From assembly GCA_949130485.1 (NCBI GenBank), contig OX422193.1:928501-992500 (forward strand): 64,000 nt of DNA. Reading direction: 5' to 3'. The DNA comes from Agelas oroides (taxonomy: Eukaryota > Porifera > Demospongiae > Agelasida > Agelasidae). The position numbers and the translations under genes were made by a program. The notes under the pieces are model-generated. The model worked only from the letters and a program-made list of their open reading frames with translations. It did not search any database and was not told the DNA's origin. Of this stretch, positions 34,416 to 56,493 are shown piece by piece. Each line of letters starts with the position of its first letter. Position 1 is the first letter of the stretch.

Positions 34416-37400
34416 CTTTAGTAAGTAGAATTTTCTTCTCAATTGATTCAGTAGCTCCTTGAAACTTGAACACTGCATAGCAATCTTCAGCAGAACTGGT
34501 GTCTTTAAATGAAATTACAAACCTTGGTGGATACAACTTCAGGCTTTCACTAAGCCGAAGTTCTTCTTTATCCATACTTTGAAAGTCCACGTCCTTGGCT
34601 GATATCTAGAAGAGCACAGGCAAGAGATAGCTTTATGACTTGTATGAACTTCATATGTTACCATGCGTACAAAAACTGCATCCAGTTGCTTGACTTTCCT
34701 TACTACATCAAATGCTAGCCAAATTAAATTCTACAACTGAAATTGATTGTTTTCACTTGGGATGAAATTATCACACTGAATAGGTATACTGAGTACGAGA
34801 TACTTTTTATATGAGACAGTTGTCATGTGTACCTTGTCAGAGGACTCCAAAGCTAGAAGCCATTGGCCCCTCACTGGTTCATCACGATTGTTGACAACTT
34901 GATACTTTAGTTCTATGGCCCCATTTACTCCTGCAAACATAAACTTGGTTGGGTGGATCTTCATCAAGTTGTTATCCAACTGCCTTTCCACAGTCTGCAC
35001 AATGGGACACCAGTAAAAGAGAACACTGCAATAAGGACTCAAATACCGATGTTATGAGGTAAAAATAGAGGTAAGTGAAAAAGCTGGCAGTCAAACTCAG
35101 GACACCTCTGGCTTGAGCTGCCAGTGCTCTGCCACTGAGCATGACAGCTGGACAACTACCAGCCCTTGATCACAATCCTCCATACTGCACAGGTGGTACT
35201 GAATGCTCCAGTCACACACATGGATGCCACTCAGTATGTGCCGTCAGAACTCCATTAGTACAAAAAAAGGATTGTAAGAGTTGGTGGTTGTCCGGCTGTC
35301 GTAGCTCAGAGGCAGAGCACTGGCAGAAGTGTCTTGGGTTTGGCTCCTGGCAACTGCTGGCCTTTTCACTTGCCTCTATTTTTGCCTCATAACATCTCAA
35401 TTCCTTTATAATAAAGACTCAGTTACACATATACATGTACACATGCAGTTGTATTTGTGGCCAAACCTACCCCAATGCAAGATTTCAGGAAATAGCAAAT
35501 GATGAAGATAATCTGTCCACCTTCTGTGTTTGAAGTAATTCGTGTTCCACCAATAAGGCAATATTTGGTGTACTCATCAGGGAAAATCGAGCTAGCTAAA
35601 CACATTGAGCAGAAATGTCTTGTTGACAGTGTGCCATGTGTAGCACGATCAAACACTGCTGTGCCATCAGCTGGTTTGAACTGATACTCCACTTCACCAT
35701 TTTCATCTGATATGTAAGGTTGATGATCAGCTTTCAGAAATCTCAGGTATGTATACGCATATTCAGTGGAGAAGTGAAGAAAATGTGGAATAGATATTTT
35801 CACATCCTTCTGAAATCCACTAAAGTCTTGTTGCTTGATGCACAGCCATACAATAGGGGACACTCTTCTCACACTTATCCCATCTGATAGTTTAAAAGGT
35901 CCATGCATGCCAACACCAAATTCAATATCAATTCTGCCTTCACTGGGTAGGACAGCTCCTTGTGGGATCATGACTCCCACATCATGCCTAGAGTTGTAAT
36001 ATTCACAGCCACGTGTGTCACAGGATATGATGTCAACGAATTGAATGCCAAGCTGGCTGACTTTAATACCCTCACTCAGTAGAGGTTTCACTTAATTTGT
36101 AGAGACATGTAAAGAGAAGAGAACCACAACAGTTACGCATGAGTGAGTGAGAGTTTTGATGCGTGTGTAATCAGGTCCCTGACTACTGTCAAAAAGTCTA
36201 CCCTGCAACATTATGGCACAGGATTAGTGCAAAAAATTTACCTCAGCTAAAGACAAGTAATAAAATTCCTCTATGCAGGCTATCCAACTGAATGCATAGT
36301 AAGGTTATTGAACTATTTGGATTTACCCAGGTCACCTAAATTGTCAATGCTGTTTCAGCTGAGAGAAGTGCAAAATATTCCGTGCAGTAAGCTAGAACTC
36401 AAAAATGCTGGACTAAACTGTCAGTGCCGCTTCATTTTAAACTGCTAAGTTTAAACTGAAGCAGCACTGACAGTTCTGTGGTGCATACACCACCACATAC
36501 CATGCATGGGACACTGCTAAATTTGCAAAACAATGAGCAGAATAATTTGGAGTTAAAAACATGGTCATATATAAACTTACTTGGCAATCTGGAAACTTCA
36601 CCTATGCCATGGGGTCTGCACATTACAGAAAATAATACATTACAATCAGAATTAGTATCTTTAGCTATATATCAACCACACTAAGATCGCTACTGGACCA
36701 TCACAGGATTTCAGCTTCAAAGTCAACTCGAGCTAAGATGCTTCATGCAGACATGTAGGAGTGATACACTACTGTTGGTAATAGCAGTTGTAAACTTCTA
36801 TTTTGAAGCCCATGCAACTACATTCTCAACATACCCTTCAGTAGCACTGTTACTGATGCGTGGATTAGTCAACATCTTCAGTTGGGTAGCAGTGTTTTCT
36901 TCCAGTGCTTTTCTTAGGTGGACAGAATCACTTTTCTGAATACAATGTCTAATGTCCAATTCTTTCGATGTGGTGTTCACTCTCAGGACAGACGCAAGGC
37001 TGAGTATGTTTTCTGAGCTGAACTTTGACCTTCTCATGTCAAGTTTCTCAAGGGAGGTATTGTGAGAAAGGCCATCAAGAACAAACTTAATGCTGTCAGG
37101 TGATAATTGATTACCACCAATGTTAAGCACTTCTATACACATGGAACTAGCCAGCAACTCACTCAAGGCCTTGCAGTCCTCAAAACCAATACCAGTGTTA
37201 TTTAAGTGCAGTTCTCTGATGGTACTGAACTTAGTGAGAGATGTGATGAGATTCACTGCACCTCCTCTGCCAATGGGGTTGTCACTAAGGTTCAGGTACT
37301 GAAGGTGTAGTAGCAAATCAGTGTGTTTAGACAAGAGGTTGCAGGTTTCTGATGTAACATTACTCTCCTTCAAACCAAGATGGGTTAGGTCCTGAAATAC

Positions 37401-40400
37401 CAACATTTGTGGCACGTTATCTACTAACAAATGGACAGCAGCTTGGTCAGATTCCCTCAACCATATTCCTCTGATCTGCCCGGCTGTTGGCAACAGACAC
37501 TGGTCCTCATAGAGGCTTAATGCTTTCAAAAATAATTCGACAGATTCAAGCTTACATCTAACCAACCCTAGCTTCCAGTCGCATCTGCTGTGGCTAATGA
37601 CATAGCCCAGAACATACCAATCAACTGGCCGTGCATAATCACAACCAAACTGATCAAAGCACACACAGTCAGAACCACGGACACTAGTGATCGCTGTCAG
37701 ACCTTGAGACTCAAAAAGCCAGTGAAGAACTTCACGCTTGATCGAGTTTTTTTCCTCCCCTAACAATGAATAGGTTGGTATAGGTTTCCTGGCAAACCCT
37801 TTCACAAGATCCCACAAGTCTTTTCCCAACTCACTGAGTCCTGCTAGGCATATCAGTACCACTTCCAACTTCTTAGTTTTAATATGATTTCTCATGAATG
37901 CTACCTGCTCATCTCTGTTCTGCTGGGAAATGTGGTAGGCTGCTAAATATTCTTGGACTGTTAAGTGAAGGAAGTTATATGAAACACAAGCCCCCCTGTC
38001 CACATATACCTCTGGACAGCTCTGCATCAATCCCAGGGGGTCAAAGTCACTGGGAAACTCTTGGAAGATAAGCTCAGTCTCAGAACTCATCAGTCCAGTG
38101 TACGCAATTTTACAAATCTCACAAAACTGATCATACACAGGTTGAGGAAGATCTTTGAAACTGTTGATACTTGTACATGTATCCTTGTACTCCTCTTTAT
38201 CTTTCAAATAGCGGAGCAGTAGGGTTCTAATCAGGGATGAGTAAAGCTGGGTCATGGTTTTGGGAACAACTGTGCCACTTGACTTACAAGACTCATAAAC
38301 ATGAGTTACTATAGCTGAGTTGAGTGGCACATACATCATGCTGTGAATGTGGGGATAGAGGGAGAGGTACTCCTTGAAATTGGATCGTGACTGCTCATCT
38401 GAGAAGGCATAATGAATGTACTCATCTATCTCCTTTTTACCAAAGCCTACTATCTCAATTCTGCGAGAGTTCACGCTATTACAAAATTGACGAAGCCCTG
38501 CAGCAGCACTGGGTCTAGTGGTCAAAATCACAGTGGCCTTGGGAAGTTCATCACCTCTAAACAGCCTAACAAAAATGGAATCCATTGTTCGTATTGAGGC
38601 AGGAGCCTCATTAAATCCCTCAAGGATTAGTAAAAGCCTGTCGCCACCAGATAAGATGATGTAATCAACAATTTCAGACTGCAGCTTGGGGTGGGGATAA
38701 TAAAACAGATCAGAAACACTCTTGGCTTCCTGCACCCTCTTATCTCGAAATTTCAACAGGACCACCATGGAATAGTCATTGAAAAGCTGGTGCTGGCCCC
38801 ACTTCTGACACACCTCCCATGCAAATCTTGATTTACCAATGCCAGGGGCACCTTCAATTAGCAACTGTGTTACTGGGTAGTGTTCGTGTTTCTCATCATC
38901 ATGCACACAGTTTGGTTTGAGAATATTCTTCATTCTAATTGGAGCCTTCCACTCTAAAATATCATCAATAGATCCATGAATAGTTTGCTGTCTGAATTTT
39001 ACCAGATCTTCTCTGTTAGCATACTCATTGTTGATCACTGCTAAGTTGATGTAATTTTTTGTGTTCAGTTGAGGCCACTTGGTGCAAGGTGCATGGTGTC
39101 GTGTGTAATAGTCTCTAAGAAATAAGGCATACTTTCCTAGTGGGCTATCAGGGTGAGGGGGAGGGGGCTGTTGGGAAGGAGGTGACCTGGCTGGTTGGGA
39201 AGAGGGTTGATATGAGTGGACAGGCCGACCAGAAAGTTGGAAAGGGGCTTGGTGAGAAACACTGAAGGGAGATTGGTAGAGGGGTGGGTTATTAGCCGGA
39301 AAGGAAGGGCGGTGTGGTAAGGGAGTATAATGGAAGTACGCAGCCTGTAAGTGCCCTAATCCAGAATGTCCAAGTGTAGGAGGCTGATGAGGAGCCGAAA
39401 GAGAAAGAGGTTGGGAGTGAGTTGAGTGCCGATCTTGGGGATGGGTAGGTTGTTGGGGGAAATGATGATGCTGACGATGTAGAAGCTGTATACTTGATGT
39501 CACTGGCTTACTTTCTAAACCTGACACAAGTGACACGCCGTCTTCCTCATGCACACATATACGTTTCACTGCTGGGGTACTTAGTTCCTCACCACCATCT
39601 CTTGGTTCAACTGACCCACCTCCTCCATGTGCACCTGATGTTGCGCTCGAGAGTCCTCCTGTGTGGGTGCATGGGATAGGGGAGGAGAGAAAGGGGAAAG
39701 TAATGTGTGTGAAAAGAGAGGATTAAGAGGATTAGACTTTGAACTTACACTCTGCAGTGACAAAGTAACAGCACATTTGCAATTATTGTATCCTTGTTAT
39801 AGAAAAAACAAAATAATAAGCCTAAATTATACTCCAAGATATTTACAAAATTTAGAGCTGAAGATTTACCTAACTAACAAGCTTTAGAGCTTAGGCCTTA
39901 ATTATCGTATTTATATCAAAACCAGCTAGTGTTACTTAGCTTATTTCAAGGTAACGAGTACTTTATAAATGGCATTTATCTTAGCTATACGATAAAAGGT
40001 ATGCAATCGACCACATGATTTCAACTTGCTGTTACCTAGCCTCTGCTTCTGTTGGCTTGTATTGATGGTCTTTCAGCTTCCTTCGTGCCATGCACAAGCC
40101 CTGTCTACATACACGTGGACGCAAAATTTTTGGCTTTCTTGTAGATCAGGTAGTGCAAAAAGTTTATAATAAGACAAGCATGTTTTCACATATTTGGTAC
40201 AGTTTATCTCGGGAATTCTGCTGATACATAGACCGTACAGAATGCTTCTGGCATAACAAAATATATTGTGCAGGGATGTTGATTGAGTTATACGCGACAA
40301 TGTTGATAAAAGCCACTCATATGCCACCTAACCTTGCCTGACACTGAATGTAAAGCTAAGGTACCATTGCACAGAAACGAGCGCAAGTCCGGCTTGAATC

Positions 40401-42012
40401 AGCCATGTTTGAGAGAGCTGTCTGTTGGAAAGGACAGGAAGTAAGTGGCATGCTATAATTACACATTGGAATGAAGCCTCCCGGACACTTCCTGTTCTTG
40501 CTTTAAAATCCTGGACTGCTACCCTAACTACTGATGAGGGTAGCTACAGTCTGTTGTCAAAACAGAAGCAGAACAGTGTACATGCATGGAACAAGTAAAT
40601 GTATATATGCCTTTACAGGGCTAGAAACAAGGCATCAACAGCATCAATAGCATTATCAGTAGAAGCACTATCATAGTCTCAAACCCAGGCCTTCCATTCC
40701 GGATTTAGTCTTGCAGCTTTGGAGAAAAATCAGCTTTATGTTCCAAACTTTTCTCCAAAGCTGTGAGACAAAATCCGGAACGGAAGGCCTGGGTTTGAGA
40801 CTAGCAATTGCGTACACACCTTGTGAGATGTGAGACAGGAAAGAATCGTCAGGTGGGGCTAGGTAGGTCTGGTTTGCTCTCTCTGTTCTTGGGCAGTACT
40901 TGTCTCTCAGTTGTTGGGCCAGGAGCCTCTCCCCCACAGGAGGACTATCAAGAGCTTCAATGAGAACGTCCCAAGTACAAGGAGGGTTGATTTGCTTCAA
41001 CCAGACAGTCAGCATTTCCAGTAGACACTCTTCTGCTGTGCAGTTGTTACTTTGAATGGACTTAAGTGTTTCAATGGAAACTTGTAACTGTACTCCAAGA
41101 GAGAACCACTTGTCAGAGACTAGATGTAGCTCACAGTGCAGCAACCTCAGGTCATCTAGGCCTACAGAGAGCAGGGACACAAAATGGTACCATGGGGTGA
41201 CTGGATCATCACCAACAGAAGAGAACTAAAAGCAAAGTTAAAAAATGACTGTAATGTCTTGATATTCACTGAACAAATATGCCCACATAACCCATATAGT
41301 TATACACATTTAATGACTCAGGAACGTTATGTGCAGAGTTGCCTACACTCAACTACATGTATAGATGCAATTTCAATGAGAAAAGCTGCCTGTCTTCATT
41401 TGTCCTTTCACTGTGCAGCCTCTCCACTGCTTTCCTGTTTCTTATAATTAGGCATGCATAGTTTGGTACAAAAAAAATAAGGGCTTATTTTCAGGAGATT
41501 ATGATGCGGTAGAAGGTCTTACACTAATCCAGATACTCACCGAAAGGTCCTGGGTTCAGCTCTACATCGCCACTCAACAATAACAGGAGAACCACTACCC
41601 CTGCCACCACTGTCCTCGCCAGACTGAAGAACACCCTAAGACTCAGGGTGGGAGAAACACGTCGGACATTGGTGTAGGTGTAGGATGAGAAACATGACAT
41701 ATATCCAGTGTTCAGCCTTACTCTTCTGTTCAAGAGGACCATGGCTGGTAGCACATTGTTGGGGGATGGAAGCACAACAGGTGTGCGGATGAAGGTCATG
41801 TGATTACATCGGTCAAGTGGGTTCATGCGGTATGTGGTTGCTAGCTGCCTGTGTTCGACTACTACCATCAACATTGGTAGCATCAAGATACACACAGCCA
41901 AAGGAAGGGTGTAGCTGGGGGTCACATGACTGAGTTGGTGGTGGTGGTGGATGTGTGGCCTCAGGGAAGCTCTCCTATAGTTCTTCCAGCTTCTGTCATT
42001 AATGATCTGCAT
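34416..42012 (-). CDS. NLR A: membrane leader with 2A motif, Death domain, NACHT, LRR, ZU5 and UPA-like region
   Basis: Exons: 41541-42012, 40820-41161, 36835-39658, 36581-36615, 35471-36090, 34833-34994, 34416-34605, possibly continuing to 33049. Phases agree throughout. Exon 1 (157 aa) has hydrophobic stretches at about 36-53 and 127-146 and ends GDVELNPGPFG, a canonical 2A motif with the skip expected before P156. Exon 2 is a Death domain (KWFSLGVQLQVSIETLKSI, ECLLEMLTVWLK). Exon 3 has a Pro/His/Gln-rich linker, a NACHT with Walker A GAPGIGKS near residue 540 and a Walker-B-like LLLILEGFNEA, then LRRs. If unspliced, the frame stops at 36798. The GTATGT donor at 36829-36834 leads instead through a 35-bp exon into a ZU5-like domain (VGVMIPQGAVLPSEGRIDIEF). 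Two further exons are beta-rich. Expected role: intracellular danger sensing. The 3' end is uncertain. Confidence 0.85.
35048..35396. mobile_element. foldback element made of inverted tRNA-like (SINE) heads, in NLR A intron
   Basis: The ends are about 45-bp inverted repeats (GATGTTATGAGGTAAAAATA on the left and its partner on the right). Each arm continues with a tRNA A-box-like string; TAGCTCAGAGGCAGAGCACT at about 35297 appears inverted near 35100-35130. A degenerate B box (GGGTTTGGCTCC) follows. This suggests two head-to-head copies of a tRNA-derived SINE. Confidence 0.65.
39659..40673. other. intron of NLR A between Death-domain and NACHT exons
   Basis: No exon supported. In NLR B the matching interval contains an extra small exon and a second Death domain. 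I searched this part for an equivalent of the linker exon (NLLSSQ...PHIIAHT) and did not find one. Confidence 0.55.
40674..40803. mobile_element. MITE with TAGTCTCAAACCCAGGC termini
   Basis: TAGTCTCAAACCCAGGCCTT and its inverted partner close a near-complete hairpin with arms CCGGATTT / AAATCCGG and AGCTTTGGAGAAAA / TTTTCTCCAAAGCT. It lies directly beside the 3' end of the Death-domain exon of NLR A. Confidence 0.8.
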
Positions 42013-42378
42013 CTGGAGAAGAGGGAGGAATCATAATCCTAACTCCACACCCAAACCAAACCAGCATCATGTACAGAGAAGGCATTACTGTTTTCCGATG
42101 TGTTAGGCCAAGGCTGAACTCGCGATGTTAAGATGGGTAGGAAGAGTACTTATACAATCATGCGGACACATAACATAAGTACAAAGGGCGCAAAAGTACA
42201 AATGGGGCCAAGCCACCATGAGAGAATGGAACAATGATCTATTCAAATACAACAAAGCACACAGATAGAAGATGAGGCCTCTAAGGTCAAACAACAAATT
42301 AACACCTAATTAGCACAAGCCAGCACTTAAAACAAAGACAGAGTTTGGTCCACCACATACACACACCCAGCATAAATA

Positions 42379-46287: not shown

Positions 46288-49200
46288 TTAGCTAAATGTG
46301 ACACGATCTTGTAGAGCTTTGTCTAATGTAGAAAATGAGGGTGTTTCACATTCGTATGAAAGTCCAAGTTCCTCCAGTGTTGTATTGTGTTTCAGGCTCT
46401 CAATCAGTTCTAAGGCATCCTCAACACCAATCACATTACCTAAATCATCACCACAGATCATAAGTGTCTCTAGACACTGGTTCTTCTTAAGCATACTAGC
46501 AAAAGCAACTGCACCTTCTGACCCAATTGGATTGTGACTAATGTTAAACTCTCTCACAGTGGAATTCTTTTCCAGTGCCTTTGCCAGACAGACAGCACCT
46601 TCTCCATGAATAATGCACCATCTCATGTTGAGTTCAGTTAAGCTCTTGTTTGTAGCTAACATGTCAGCAAAAGCAACTGCGCCTTCAGATCCAATTGGAT
46701 TACTAGCAACATTAAACCCACTCACAGTGGAATTATTTTCCAATGCCTCTGCAAGATGGACAGCCCCTTCTCCCTGAATTTTGCAATAACCCAGGTTTAC
46801 ATTGGTTAAGCTCTTGTTTGTAGCTAGCATGTCAGCAAAAGCAACTGCACCTTCTGATTCAATTGGATTACCCATCAGTTCCAGGGTTTGTAGTTGGGTA
46901 GTGGTGTTTTCTTCCAGTGCCTTTGCTAGGTGGACAGAATCACTACTCTGAATATCGCACTCCCCAATGTTCAACTCCTTCAACCTGGTGTTCCCTTTCA
47001 GCACTGAAGCAAGGCTCAGGACATTCTCTGAACCAAACTTTGCGTCACTCATGATCAGTATCTCAAGGGAGGTATTGAGAGAAAGACCGTCAACAATTAA
47101 CTGAATGCTATCAGGTGATAGCTCATTATCACCAATAGTAAGAACTTCTATGCACTCGGAGCTAGCCAGCAACTCACTCAAGGCCTTGCAGTCCTCAAAA
47201 CCAATAGAAGTCATCCTCAAACCCAGTTTACTGATGGTACTAAAAGTAGTTAAGGAGATAATGAGGTTTACTGCACCTCCTCTGCCAATACAGAAGTTTT
47301 CACTAAGGTCCAGGTACTCAAGGTGCTGTAGCAAGTCACAGTGTGCGGCCAAGAAGTTGCAGACTTCTGAATCAAGGTAAGTATGCTGCAAATCAAGATG
47401 TGTCAGGTTGTGATGCACATTCTCTAATAGCCAATGGACAGCTATTGGGGATGAAAATTTTAAGCGCATCCTCTTGATCTTCCCTGTTGTTTGCAGCTGA
47501 CATGGGTCCTGCACAAGATTTAATGCTTTTGGAAGCATTTCAAACAATTCCAGTTCAACAACTTTAATATCAAGGCTCCAGCCACAACAGCTGTGGTTAA
47601 TGCAATACCCCAAAACATACCAGTCAAATAGCAGGGCACCCACATATTTGAAACTCACACAGTCAGAACCAAGGATTCTATTGATTGCTGAAGGATTTTG
47701 AGACTCAAAAAGCCAGTGGAGGACTTCAAGTGTAACGATTCCTTCCTCCCTTAATGAAAAACAAGTTGATCTAGTCTCAATTGCAAACACCCTGACAGCA
47801 TCTGGTAAGTCCCTTCCCAATTCACTGATGCCTGCTAGAAATCTTACTACCATTTTTAACTTTTTAACTTCAATAGATTCTTACATAAATGCTTCCAAAT
47901 TATTTGCTTTAATGTACTGTCTCATGAATGCAACCTGCTCATCTCTGCTTTGCTGGAAAACGTGGTAGGCTGCTAAATACTCTTGGACTGTTAAGTGAAG
48001 GAAGTTATATGAAACAGAAGCCCCCCTGTCCACACACAGCTCTGGACAGGTTTGCATCAATCCCAGGGAGTCAAAGTCACTGGGAAGGTCTTGGAAGATA
48101 AGCTCAGTTTCAGCACTCATGATTCCTGTGTATGCTATTTTACAGATCTCACAAAACTGATCATACACAGGTTGAGGAAGATCTTTGAAACTGTTGATAT
48201 TTGTACATGTATCCTTGTACTCCTCTTTATCTTTCAAATAGCGGAGCAGTAGGGTTCTAATCAGGGATGAGTAAAGCTGGGTCATGGTTTTGGGAACAAC
48301 TGTGCTACTTGACTTGCAAGATCCATACACATGAGTTACTATAGCTGAGTTGAGTGGTACATACATCATCCTGTGGATGTGAGGATAGAGGGAGAGGTAC
48401 TCCTTGAAATCTAATAGTGACTGCTCATGTGAGAAGGCACACTGAATGTACTCATCTATCTCCTTCTTGCCAAAGCCTACTATCTCAATTCTGCGAGAGT
48501 GTTTACCCTTACAAAGCTCACGAAGCCCTGCACTAACACTGGGTCTGGTGGTCAAGATCACAGTGGCCTTGGGAAGTTCTTGGCCAATAAACAGCCGAAC
48601 AAAAATGGAATCCATTGTTCGTTTTGAGGCGGGAGCCTCATCAAATCCCTCAAGAATTATTAAGACCCCATTTCCTCCACTTGTTGTAATCACATCAACA
48701 ATTTCAGACTGCAACTTGGGGTTGGGATGGTGAAACAGTTCAGAAACACTCTTAGCTTCCTGCACCCTTTTATCTCGAAACTTCAACAGGACCACTAGGG
48801 CATACTCATTGAAAAGCTGGTGCTGGGCCCACTTCTGACACACCTCCCATGCAAATGTAGACTTGCCAATGCCAGGGGCACCTTCAATTAAAAGTTGGGT
48901 TACTGGGTAGTACTCGTGTTTCTCATCATCATGAATGTCACAAACACAGTTTGGTCTGAGTATATCCTTCATTCTAATTGGATCCTTCCACTCTAAGATA
49001 TCATCAATGGAACCATGAATTGCTTGTTCTCTGAATTTTACTACATCTTTCCTGTTGTCATACTTATTACTGATCACTGCCAGGTTGACGTAGTTTTTGG
49101 AATCTAAATGAGGCCATTTCATGGAAGTAAAGTCATGTTCTACATAACATAATTGAAGAAAATTGGCATACTTTCCAAGAAGATTTACTAAATGGGGAGA

Positions 49201-54551: not shown

Positions 54552-56480
54552 TCACTTGTATTTAGGCAATGAAAGGCTGGTTTCCAGGGACTGGTATGCC
54601 TGTGGGTGCACAACCCTGTCTGGGAGGGAACTGTCTAACTCTTGTCCACTGTTTTCAACACTTTCGATCAGAGTGGATGTTACATGGTTACGTACTGTAG
54701 CGATGGGGGTAACTTCATAGTCCAGTTCTGAGTATGATAAAATCAGTTCCCGACGGTTCTCACTGATGCATATACACAGCGCCAGGCACTTGTGCAAGAG
54801 TTTACGTTTAACGATAACCCAATAGAATGTGAAAACAATGATGTAAATAAGTGGCAGTATACCTAATATAAATGTCAAAACACTTGGTAGCTTTGCAAGT
54901 GTTAAGTCTTCGCCAGTAAACACTAGTCTCTGAACTAAAACTATGCAGAAATATGCTAAAGCCAGAAGACCAAAGAAGACGGAATCAAGCTTGTTGTAAA
55001 AGTTTCGCTTGTAAGGTCGCATCAGTGCAAACGCTAGTGATGTAGTCATGGAAAGAATGAGCAAAACGTAAGGCCACGTGGATACTGAAGTCACTACAAC
55101 AGCAAAGACGATCCTCAGTGCAAAGTACAACCCTGCAAAGAACCGGAAGTCATGTCCCCAGTGACTGCCATCCCTAAAGCAACCTTGATATTTGTCGACA
55201 AAGGTGCGTAAAGTGTGGCACCGACAGCAGCAGCAGTTGAGAAGCTTCTGGAAAGCTTTCAACTGGTAGAACATAAGTAGGAGAGGAGGGATGGTGATAA
55301 CAGTGGCTAAGAGTAGAGCACTTACTAGTGCAAAGGGAAGGTGTTGCTTACTGAAGTATTCTACATTTGCATCGTAGTAAAACAGGGTGGGCCCAACTGT
55401 GTCACCATAGGCGTTGTGGATTTGTGTAAATCTAAGCAGCCGTATGCATATCAGGACAAGTTTATTGTAGCAGAGGAGGAGGAAGGTTGCGAATGCATCA
55501 ATCATTGTTGACTGAAGATTCCACGTCCGCTTGAACCGAGTAAAACACTTGTGAAAAGGCTTCCATAGGATTACAACTATCCTGCAGTTACGACTGTGAA
55601 GTACAATACCCACATATGTGACTACTGTCAGCAGTAGCAGAAAGGCAGCAGAGGTGAACTCCAATGCAAAGGCATAAAGTGTGGTCACACCAGTACTGAG
55701 GCAGAGATTGGGGATGAGTGGACGAAAGAGGTCAAGGTTCCAAACTCCGTAAATAGAGAAGAGGATGGACTGGAATTCTTCGGCAGCAGGGCTGATGAGT
55801 TTGGCCATAAAGATCACAAACTCGATAAACTCTGGTAGGGTAGTCAACTGGCAAATGAAGACAAAAGCATTCATGGAGGGTGTGACAGCACTGACCTGAA
55901 ACACCACCACTATAACAAACAGCATTGTAACTGGCAGAAGCTGCACCGCTATGTAAGCTGTCCACCCATATGTTGCATCAGACCGTGAGCAGTTGACACA
56001 CTTGTGATTGTAAATGAATGTTGCTACGCCAGGTGAATAGCCGTCTTTACACCTGCCACACAGCAGCCCATCTCTATTGTACCGTCCACATATGAAGCTA
56101 TTCAGGTCTGAAGGGTTGCTTGGAAGTGGGATGTAGCCGTATTGCGACGACGGATCGACGTAGTATGTCTCCGTGTACAGGCATCCACCCAGTACTGTTT
56201 GGTTTAAATTTACATCATACGACATGCAATAGCCAGGAAGTATAGCTACCTCGTGGCTGGCATTGTTGCAGCGGACCTTACCGCTGATATCCCCACCACA
56301 GTCGCAGTAGCTACTCCCCCCTGAGGACATTACGGGAACAAACCAGGTCGAACAATCGAGGTCCGATCCATTCTTGCTGACAGCTGCCGTCGCTTCGACA
56401 CTGCCACCACCATTGGTGATAATTCGCACTGAGCAGAGCGCTAGGAGAAGGAAAACGATGCTATTCTGCACCATGTTCAT
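54552..56480 (-). CDS. intronless multi-pass membrane protein with cysteine-rich ectodomain, unknown function
   Basis: One exon encodes 642 aa. The best start is the ATG at 56480 (MNMVQNSIVFLLLALCSV), which begins a clear signal peptide; the in-frame GTG at 56483 is not needed. The ectodomain, about residues 25-170, is cysteine-rich (SYCDCGGDISGKVRCNN, CGRYNRDGLLCGRCKDGYSP, CVNC) with several N-x-S/T sites. About nine to ten hydrophobic helices follow, with a cysteine cluster LLNCCCCRC in a loop and a soluble tail of about 75 aa. I do not recognise a named family. The architecture suggests a receptor or channel-like surface protein. At least three dead copies lie to the left, so it belongs to a locally duplicating family next to the NLR genes. 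A 580-bp transposon sits 13 bp upstream of the ATG. Confidence 0.85.
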   Translation of the reverse strand: MNMVQNSIVFLLLALCSVRIITNGGGSVEATAAVSKNGSDLDCSTWFVPVMSSGGSSYCDCGGDISGKVRCNNASHEVAILPGYCMSYDVNLNQTVLGGCLYTETYYVDPSSQYGYIPLPSNPSDLNSFICGRYNRDGLLCGRCKDGYSPGVATFIYNHKCVNCSRSDATYGWTAYIAVQLLPVTMLFVIVVVFQVSAVTPSMNAFVFICQLTTLPEFIEFVIFMAKLISPAAEEFQSILFSIYGVWNLDLFRPLIPNLCLSTGVTTLYAFALEFTSAAFLLLLTVVTYVGIVLHSRNCRIVVILWKPFHKCFTRFKRTWNLQSTMIDAFATFLLLCYNKLVLICIRLLRFTQIHNAYGDTVGPTLFYYDANVEYFSKQHLPFALVSALLLATVITIPPLLLMFYQLKAFQKLLNCCCCRCHTLRTFVDKYQGCFRDGSHWGHDFRFFAGLYFALRIVFAVVVTSVSTWPYVLLILSMTTSLAFALMRPYKRNFYNKLDSVFFGLLALAYFCIVLVQRLVFTGEDLTLAKLPSVLTFILGILPLIYIIVFTFYWVIVKRKLLHKCLALCICISENRRELILSYSELDYEVTPIATVRNHVTSTLIESVENSGQELDSSLPDRVVHPQAYQSLETSLSLPKYK

Positions 56481-56493
56481 CACAGATCAAGTT

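Follow-up and report, generated by a model that had tools for sequence, protein, structure and literature searches.

A sponge NLR gene predicted to splice from a shortened LRR end into a ZU5 and UPA-like module

The window, that is the whole stretch of 64,000 nucleotides analyzed here, covers positions 928501-992500 of contig C11 of the Agelas oroides genome, which was searched as 259 Mb in 141 contigs. NLR A, its leader frame and the exons of the module lie on the reverse strand. The list of open reading frames places a leader frame at 41524..42030, upstream of the gene termed NLR A. It carries the motif SGDVELNPGP, putatively of the 2A type, and has no Pfam match. NLR A itself comprises a Death-domain exon (40820..41161; phase 1 at both ends; Pfam Death, E=4.3e-5) and a NACHT-LRR exon (36835..39658 up to a predicted donor; Pfam NACHT, E=3.1e-21), the LRR end of which is shorter than in the compared paralogs. 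A home-made Death HMM gives E=1.4e-41 on the Death exon, which is itself among the seven training rows.

The 3' end of NLR A can be drawn in two ways. Left unspliced, the frame reads through 36798..36834 to a TAG. Alternatively, 36835 is the final exon base and a GTATGT donor begins at 36834, 37 nt before the end of the stop at 36798. The donor is followed by a predicted 35-nt adaptor exon (36581..36615), which leads from phase 2 to phase 1, is flanked by gtgcag and gtaagt, and has a TACTAAT branch-point-like site ∼37 nt upstream of it. The ZU5 exon of 620 nt (35471..36090; attaag/gtaggt) has a phase-1 acceptor, a phase-0 donor and an HF|C motif. Two further exons of the module are conserved in relatives, the second (34833..34994) being UPA-like by position and weak similarity and the third (34416..34605) ending in a strong phase-1 donor of 9.2 bits, so a further downstream exon may exist; if the third exon is not spliced any further, its frame stays open until a TGA at ∼34311. 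The intron between the 35-nt exon and the ZU5 exon contains a palindromic stretch of 60 bp (36416..36475), and the intron after the ZU5 exon contains a dispersed inverted-repeat element (35048..35409) with many partial copies in the genome.

The first-pass annotation had read these exons as one transcript, and the borders, residues and phases it gave (GG|A and A|TG) are exact on recheck. When the six exons (Death, NACHT-LRR, 35-nt, ZU5 and two more) are joined, they encode 1391 aa without a stop and with GT-AG at every intron. The Pfam matches to Death, NACHT and LRR_6 are all above cut-off, and the order, strand and phases fit.

Splice sites were scored with a home-made matrix trained on sites of this genome (25 donors, 22 acceptors), many of them related, and the tests based on it are post hoc, with the observed scores as thresholds. 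The donor at 36834 scores 9.6 bits and is the sole donor of at least 9 bits inside the NACHT-LRR exon, as well as the sole donor of at least 4 bits in 36900-36616. Shuffling the 85-nt LRR tail produces a donor of at least 9.5 bits in 62 of 2000 trials. The 35-nt exon scores 7.8 bits at its acceptor and 6.1 bits at its donor. It was initially expected to be a chance fit, which is disfavored because only 24 of 2000 shuffles of the intron that preserve dinucleotides contain a phase-fitting open exon with both scores as good; an exon of the same quality and fitting phase appears in 30 of 1000 random stretches of the window. TACTAA-like sites precede two of the 101 window acceptors that score at least 7.7 bits, and the 35-nt exon has one of these two. 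The acceptor of the ZU5 exon is poor (-0.4 bits), and the acceptors of seven relatives are weak too (2.2 to -10.2 bits). No second copy of the 35-nt exon was found in the genome, and the 784 bp that separate NLR A from ZU5 (36878-36095) showed no DNA relative apart from their own palindrome, so comparative support for the 35-nt exon is absent.

The in-frame stop of the LRR exon counts against a fusion, as does an in-frame ATG where the region of the 35-nt exon begins (frame ...MCRPHGIGEVSRLP), which makes an independent first exon possible. Both would fit two adjoining genes, with NLR A ending at 36798 and a separate short ZU5-UPA-like gene starting in the interval, perhaps at this ATG. The same arrangement agrees with the 35-nt exon having no relative and with relatives of the module adjoining other genes. 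A first exon, however, has no need of a good acceptor and a TACTAAT site, and this one would be a very short first coding exon.

Comparison with the paralogs of NLR A bears on the same question. By sequence relationship, the NLR half is a member of a local C11 NLR group: the last 200 aa of NLR A match 15 other places on C11 at 60-76% among the matches listed; 13 of the alignments end at residue 176-178, and the other two at 189 and, in a copy with an internal stop, at 150. The 3' ends of eight paralogs were compared, namely seven of the C11 loci and NLR B, and all eight continue for 253-407 aa and end in a shared cap (FSTLDK.LQDRV, slightly varied). NLR A, at 200 aa, has neither the longer LRRs nor the C-terminal cap. 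In the corresponding part of the eight paralogs no donor reaches 9.5 bits, the best scoring 8.2. Good homology between NLR A and the paralogs stops at ∼36866-36867, and weak gapped similarity continues to residue 187-199 of 200 in three of the eight alignments (L067, L066 and NLR B), so the unspliced tail may be decayed LRR rather than foreign sequence. This LRR-like similarity favors two genes; against them, NLR A would then be an unusual paralog lacking the family cap. Poly(A) signals do not discriminate between the two ends of NLR A, as none is found in the 700 nt searched for NLR A and none in six of the eight paralogs. Two adjoining genes are judged a serious, if unlikely, alternative to the fusion.

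The mean dN/dS of NLR A against seven relatives is 0.37 over 601 shared codons, which lies inside the range of the relatives (0.29-0.47), and NLR A is thus no obvious pseudogene. The neighboring NLR B has an in-frame TAA at 47881-47883 of the reverse strand, at codon 670 of an otherwise open NACHT-LRR frame of 1200 codons; it may reflect a pseudogene, an allele or a sequencing error.

The first-pass annotation took the 620-nt exon for a ZU5 domain, which is right, although the match is weak for the exon alone (Pfam ZU5, PF00791, E=0.036, 14.8 bits; cut-off 21) and becomes firm only through relatives in the same genome. Pfam ZU5 matches all eight module proteins at E<=1, the best at 1.6e-9. A profile of the eight gives E=1.2e-4 and 9.3e-4 against ZO-1 ZU5 structures, and E=3e-5 against the ZU5 of UNC5B by hhalign. 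An AlphaFold model of the exon made without an alignment had a mean pLDDT of 31 and was set aside. At least 80 places in the genome match PF00791. A genome search with the exon itself gave at least 26 matches, the window included, with six close relatives at 61-67% (C9:2056370, C9:8073206 and four on C3); the others are fragments on C16 and distant matches (24-38%) on C17, C18, C2, C23, C1, C7 and C3.

Against the six close relatives the ZU5 exon of the window has a dN/dS of 0.25-0.33 at a dS of 0.70-0.82; against two C17 copies dS is saturated. The window copy is the most diverged of the group of seven and has the lowest dN/dS ratios. It is without three residues near its start that all seven other aligned modules have. 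Inspection by eye finds a phase-1 acceptor in C17:6100565 and in each of the six close relatives, one of these seven offering two possible AGs. An exon that is constrained and shares a phase-1 acceptor with its relatives is expected to be internal, with an upstream coding partner in phase 1. The Death exon of NLR A also ends in phase 1, so joining it to the ZU5 exon would keep the frame without the adaptor. Skipping from the Death exon, which ends at 40820, directly to ZU5 would yield a Death-ZU5-UPA-like protein, alone or beside the NLR A transcript, and would omit the constrained 2.8-kb NACHT-LRR exon; such skipping is considered very unlikely.

On sequence grounds, the ZU5 half belongs to a ZU5-UPA-like-Death family of this genome. 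The order ZU5, exon 2, exon 3 and Death is present in four relatives (C17:6100565, C9:2056370, C9:8073206 and C3:2610622), three of which have a Pfam Death match above cut-off, with C3:2610622 falling below it (19.3 vs 22.6 bits). At C17:6492746 (L060), Death is absent in ∼1.1 kb after exon 3. The sequences upstream of the module are diverse. The ZU5 exon of C17:6100565 is in frame with a long membrane-protein reading frame. At C9:2056370, a phase-1 donor of 11.8 bits lies in the upstream frame, 759 bp ahead of the ZU5 exon, and phase-1 donors of 8.4, 8.5 and 9.1 bits lie upstream at C9:8073206. Among the C3 copies, by contrast, L034 is the only one of the four with an upstream frame that offers a phase-1 donor of at least 7 bits (8.2 bits), and the donors of the other three are in other phases, which counts against the fusion. 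As the module adjoins different kinds of genes, it appears to be a shuffled cassette.

Several of these loci have further features. The four C3 copies (C3:2557658, 2610622, 2709823 and 2801461) lie inside 250 kb, and one of them has a retrotransposon-like reading frame close upstream. The closest ZU5 relative, L057 (C9:2049000-2058999), has upstream frames that by eye are LRAT/NlpC-like and glycine-zipper-like, both names being guesses, and a phase-1 donor that faces its ZU5 exon; L057 is a possible effector-ZU5-UPA-Death gene. In the window, a reverse-strand frame at 54552-56486 is cysteine-rich, apparently spans the membrane several times and is without a Pfam match. It is related to the membrane part of the C17:6100565 frame (21% over 459 aligned columns, E=3e-9).

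The proximity of NACHT and ZU5 was counted from 131 NACHT rows, in which at least three places were entered twice, and 92 ZU5 rows. Among these listed matches, the pair in the window is the only one within 10 kb, and by chance 0.07 pairs would be expected with the ZU5 on the same strand and no more than 3 kb downstream. The distance from NLR B to the ZU5 exon of the window is 13 kb. On C2, a second NACHT and ZU5 pair (C2:16880704 and 16891641) is located on one strand 10.9 kb apart and may be another NACHT-ZU5 gene.

The first-pass annotation extended the parallel with NLRP1 to a ZU5-UPA module of the FIIND kind. The ZU5 part stands, and UPA is only suggested, by its position and by a weak hhalign match of exons 2 and 3 with the UNC5B UPA (E∼0.04, probability 1.3%, with three of 100 shuffled targets as good). 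Pfam UPA (PF17217) matches none of the eight module proteins and nothing in the genome search, nor does it match in control genomes. Membership in FIIND is not borne out: Pfam FIIND (PF13553) matches none of the eight module proteins at E<=1 and nothing in the genome at E<=0.1, a search that is silent in control genomes too and so carries little weight alone. An NLRP1-like C-terminal effector likewise was not found downstream. Tblastn with two Death queries detects no Death domain downstream of the module, and the Death HMM, run over window reading frames of at least 20 aa, returns nothing beyond the Death exons already known in NLR A and NLR B, three in all. In eight downstream reading frames Pfam reports no death-fold; these searches would miss a domain divided among small exons, and a CARD lying in other frames.

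These observations, namely the Death exon not found after the module in the window, the lost LRR end and cap, the three-residue loss in ZU5 and the in-frame stop of NLR B, could also reflect decay, in which a rearrangement broke NLR A and left an orphan ZU5 fragment alongside, neither end giving a working product. In contrast to this expectation, the NACHT-LRR and ZU5 exons are both open with dN/dS far below 1, and the splice sites of the module are retained. Decay of this kind is regarded as improbable.

The first-pass annotation also called for an F/S autoproteolysis site. The window has HF|C rather than SF|S, in the form RHF|CSM, at the place of the cleavage site when aligned by eye. It stands where PIDD has HF|S and CARD8 has SF|S, and YGSIQLSHFS, HGTLSTRHFC and YAVLESPSFS of CARD8 align by eye without a gap. 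A result that cuts against this placement comes from hhalign in relaxed mode, which pairs HFC with an earlier stretch of UNC5B and not with the cleavage-site place. The motif is HFC in nine of 13 aligned exons, HLC in one, HCC in one and neither in two. Residues H158, C160 and C163 are invariant across the eight modules. Of the 30 top-ranking ZU5 exons in the genome (L001-L030), 20 have HFS as the first motif found, mostly within GSIQLSHFSG; HFS is the sequence of PIDD and a motif of the PIDD/Nup98 type. On this motif, the HFS-bearing ZU5 proteins of this genome form a candidate self-cleaving set. One study gives SF|S as the site in CARD8 and NLRP1, Leu-677 as the equivalent of the cleavage site in UNC5B, and Ser, Thr or Cys as residues able to start this reaction (PMC3210808). 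By analogy, the Cys of HF|C is a possible nucleophile.

A Death-NACHT-LRR-ZU5 transcript, as in the first-pass annotation, would account most economically for the constraint on the ZU5 exon, the shortening of the LRR end and the splice signals. This predicted join, with NLR A splicing into ZU5, is the best reading and is held to be somewhat probable. In this reading, a member of the local NLR group with the order Death-NACHT-LRR would have lost its last LRRs and its C-terminal cap, and the donor at the shortened LRR end would splice through the 35-nt adaptor to the ZU5 and UPA-like exons. These exons would derive from a captured ZU5-UPA-like-Death cassette now without its Death exon. The domain order of the predicted protein is Death-NACHT-LRR-ZU5-UPA-like, preceded by the 2A-like leader if that is included.

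In UNC5B, a membrane receptor, ZU5-UPA closes on the Death domain. By analogy, the ZU5-UPA-like tail of NLR A may clamp the N-terminal Death domain, and activation of NACHT-LRR would open the clamp. Cleavage at HF|C, if it occurs, would leave the clamp held only non-covalently. A further step is to view the gene as an independent NLRP1-like receptor that cleaves itself at HF|C by Cys, with an N-terminal Death domain and a non-covalent ZU5-UPA-like clamp, and hence as an inside-out NLRP1 design that arose by recent capture of a cassette. This fuller proposal is tentative and thought rather unlikely.

The first-pass annotation left the choice between deep ancestry and convergence open, and the evidence leans to convergence. 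The halves come from the C11 NLR group and from the ZU5-UPA-like-Death family, and since each half has paralogs in this genome, recent capture is suggested rather than deep ancestry. Deep common ancestry with NLRP1 was set aside given the close paralogs of each half and the finding that, among the matches listed, none of the other NLR A paralogs has a ZU5 nearer than 10 kb.

Three known proteins resemble parts of the predicted NLR A. NLRP1 is a human inflammasome sensor with the order PYD-NACHT-LRR-FIIND-CARD, in which FIIND consists of ZU5-UPA. It shares with the predicted NLR A the order NACHT-LRR-ZU5-(UPA-like), and both NLRP1 and CARD8 share with the window a motif of F and nucleophile at the end of ZU5 in the gap-free alignment made by eye. 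In contrast, NLRP1 has PYD where NLR A has Death, a C-terminal CARD where none is found in NLR A, and SF|S where the window has HF|C; the FIIND and UPA profiles are unmatched in the window, and a separate origin seems probable. PIDD1, which is LRR-ZU5-ZU5-UPA-Death, resembles NLR A in that LRR is followed by ZU5 and that HF precedes the nucleophile, whereas NLR A differs in its NACHT domain, its single ZU5, Cys in place of Ser, and an N-terminal instead of a C-terminal Death domain. UNC5B (ZU5-UPA-Death) matches at ZU5 by hhalign (E=3e-5) and has the same order, with a UPA-like part, as the four relatives in the genome, so that their module plus Death is in UNC5/PIDD order. It differs in being a membrane receptor, and in the window copy no Death exon is found.

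In the parts of the literature available here, the components of the predicted NLR A are already known. The sponge NLRD proteins of Dysidea avara (PMC12909245) share Death, NACHT and LRR with NLR A, which differs in its shortened LRR and its predicted ZU5-UPA-like tail. NACHT and ZU5 occur in one protein in cnidarians (PMC8260672) and in early animals, Dysidea avara among them (PMC12909245), and this pair of domains is what they share with the predicted NLR A. A lineage-specific expansion of ZU5 in sponges, perhaps for defense, was noted in 2012 (PMC3482391). FIIND and ZU5-UPA fusions with TRADD-N domains are described in animals (PMC8195603). Sponges are known to have Death-NACHT-LRR proteins, and the sections available of one survey name FIIND NLRs only for human and fish (PMC11508797). 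A NACHT-LRR-ZU5-UPA protein outside vertebrates was not found in the accessible portions of the open-access literature. What is new is that these known parts are predicted to be joined in this way, and that the join apparently arose separately and recently, as suggested by its absence from the nearest NLR A paralogs among the matches listed.

If the join is true, NACHT-LRR-ZU5 would have been assembled a second time, recently and from two unrelated families of paralogs in one genome, and the layout would be one that is easily reached by exon shuffling. It would also provide a natural test of what role ZU5-UPA plays when the NLR that carries it has no C-terminal CARD. The set of ZU5 exons with the PIDD-type HF|S, together with the HF|C subfamily, makes the chemistry of cleavage in sponges directly testable.
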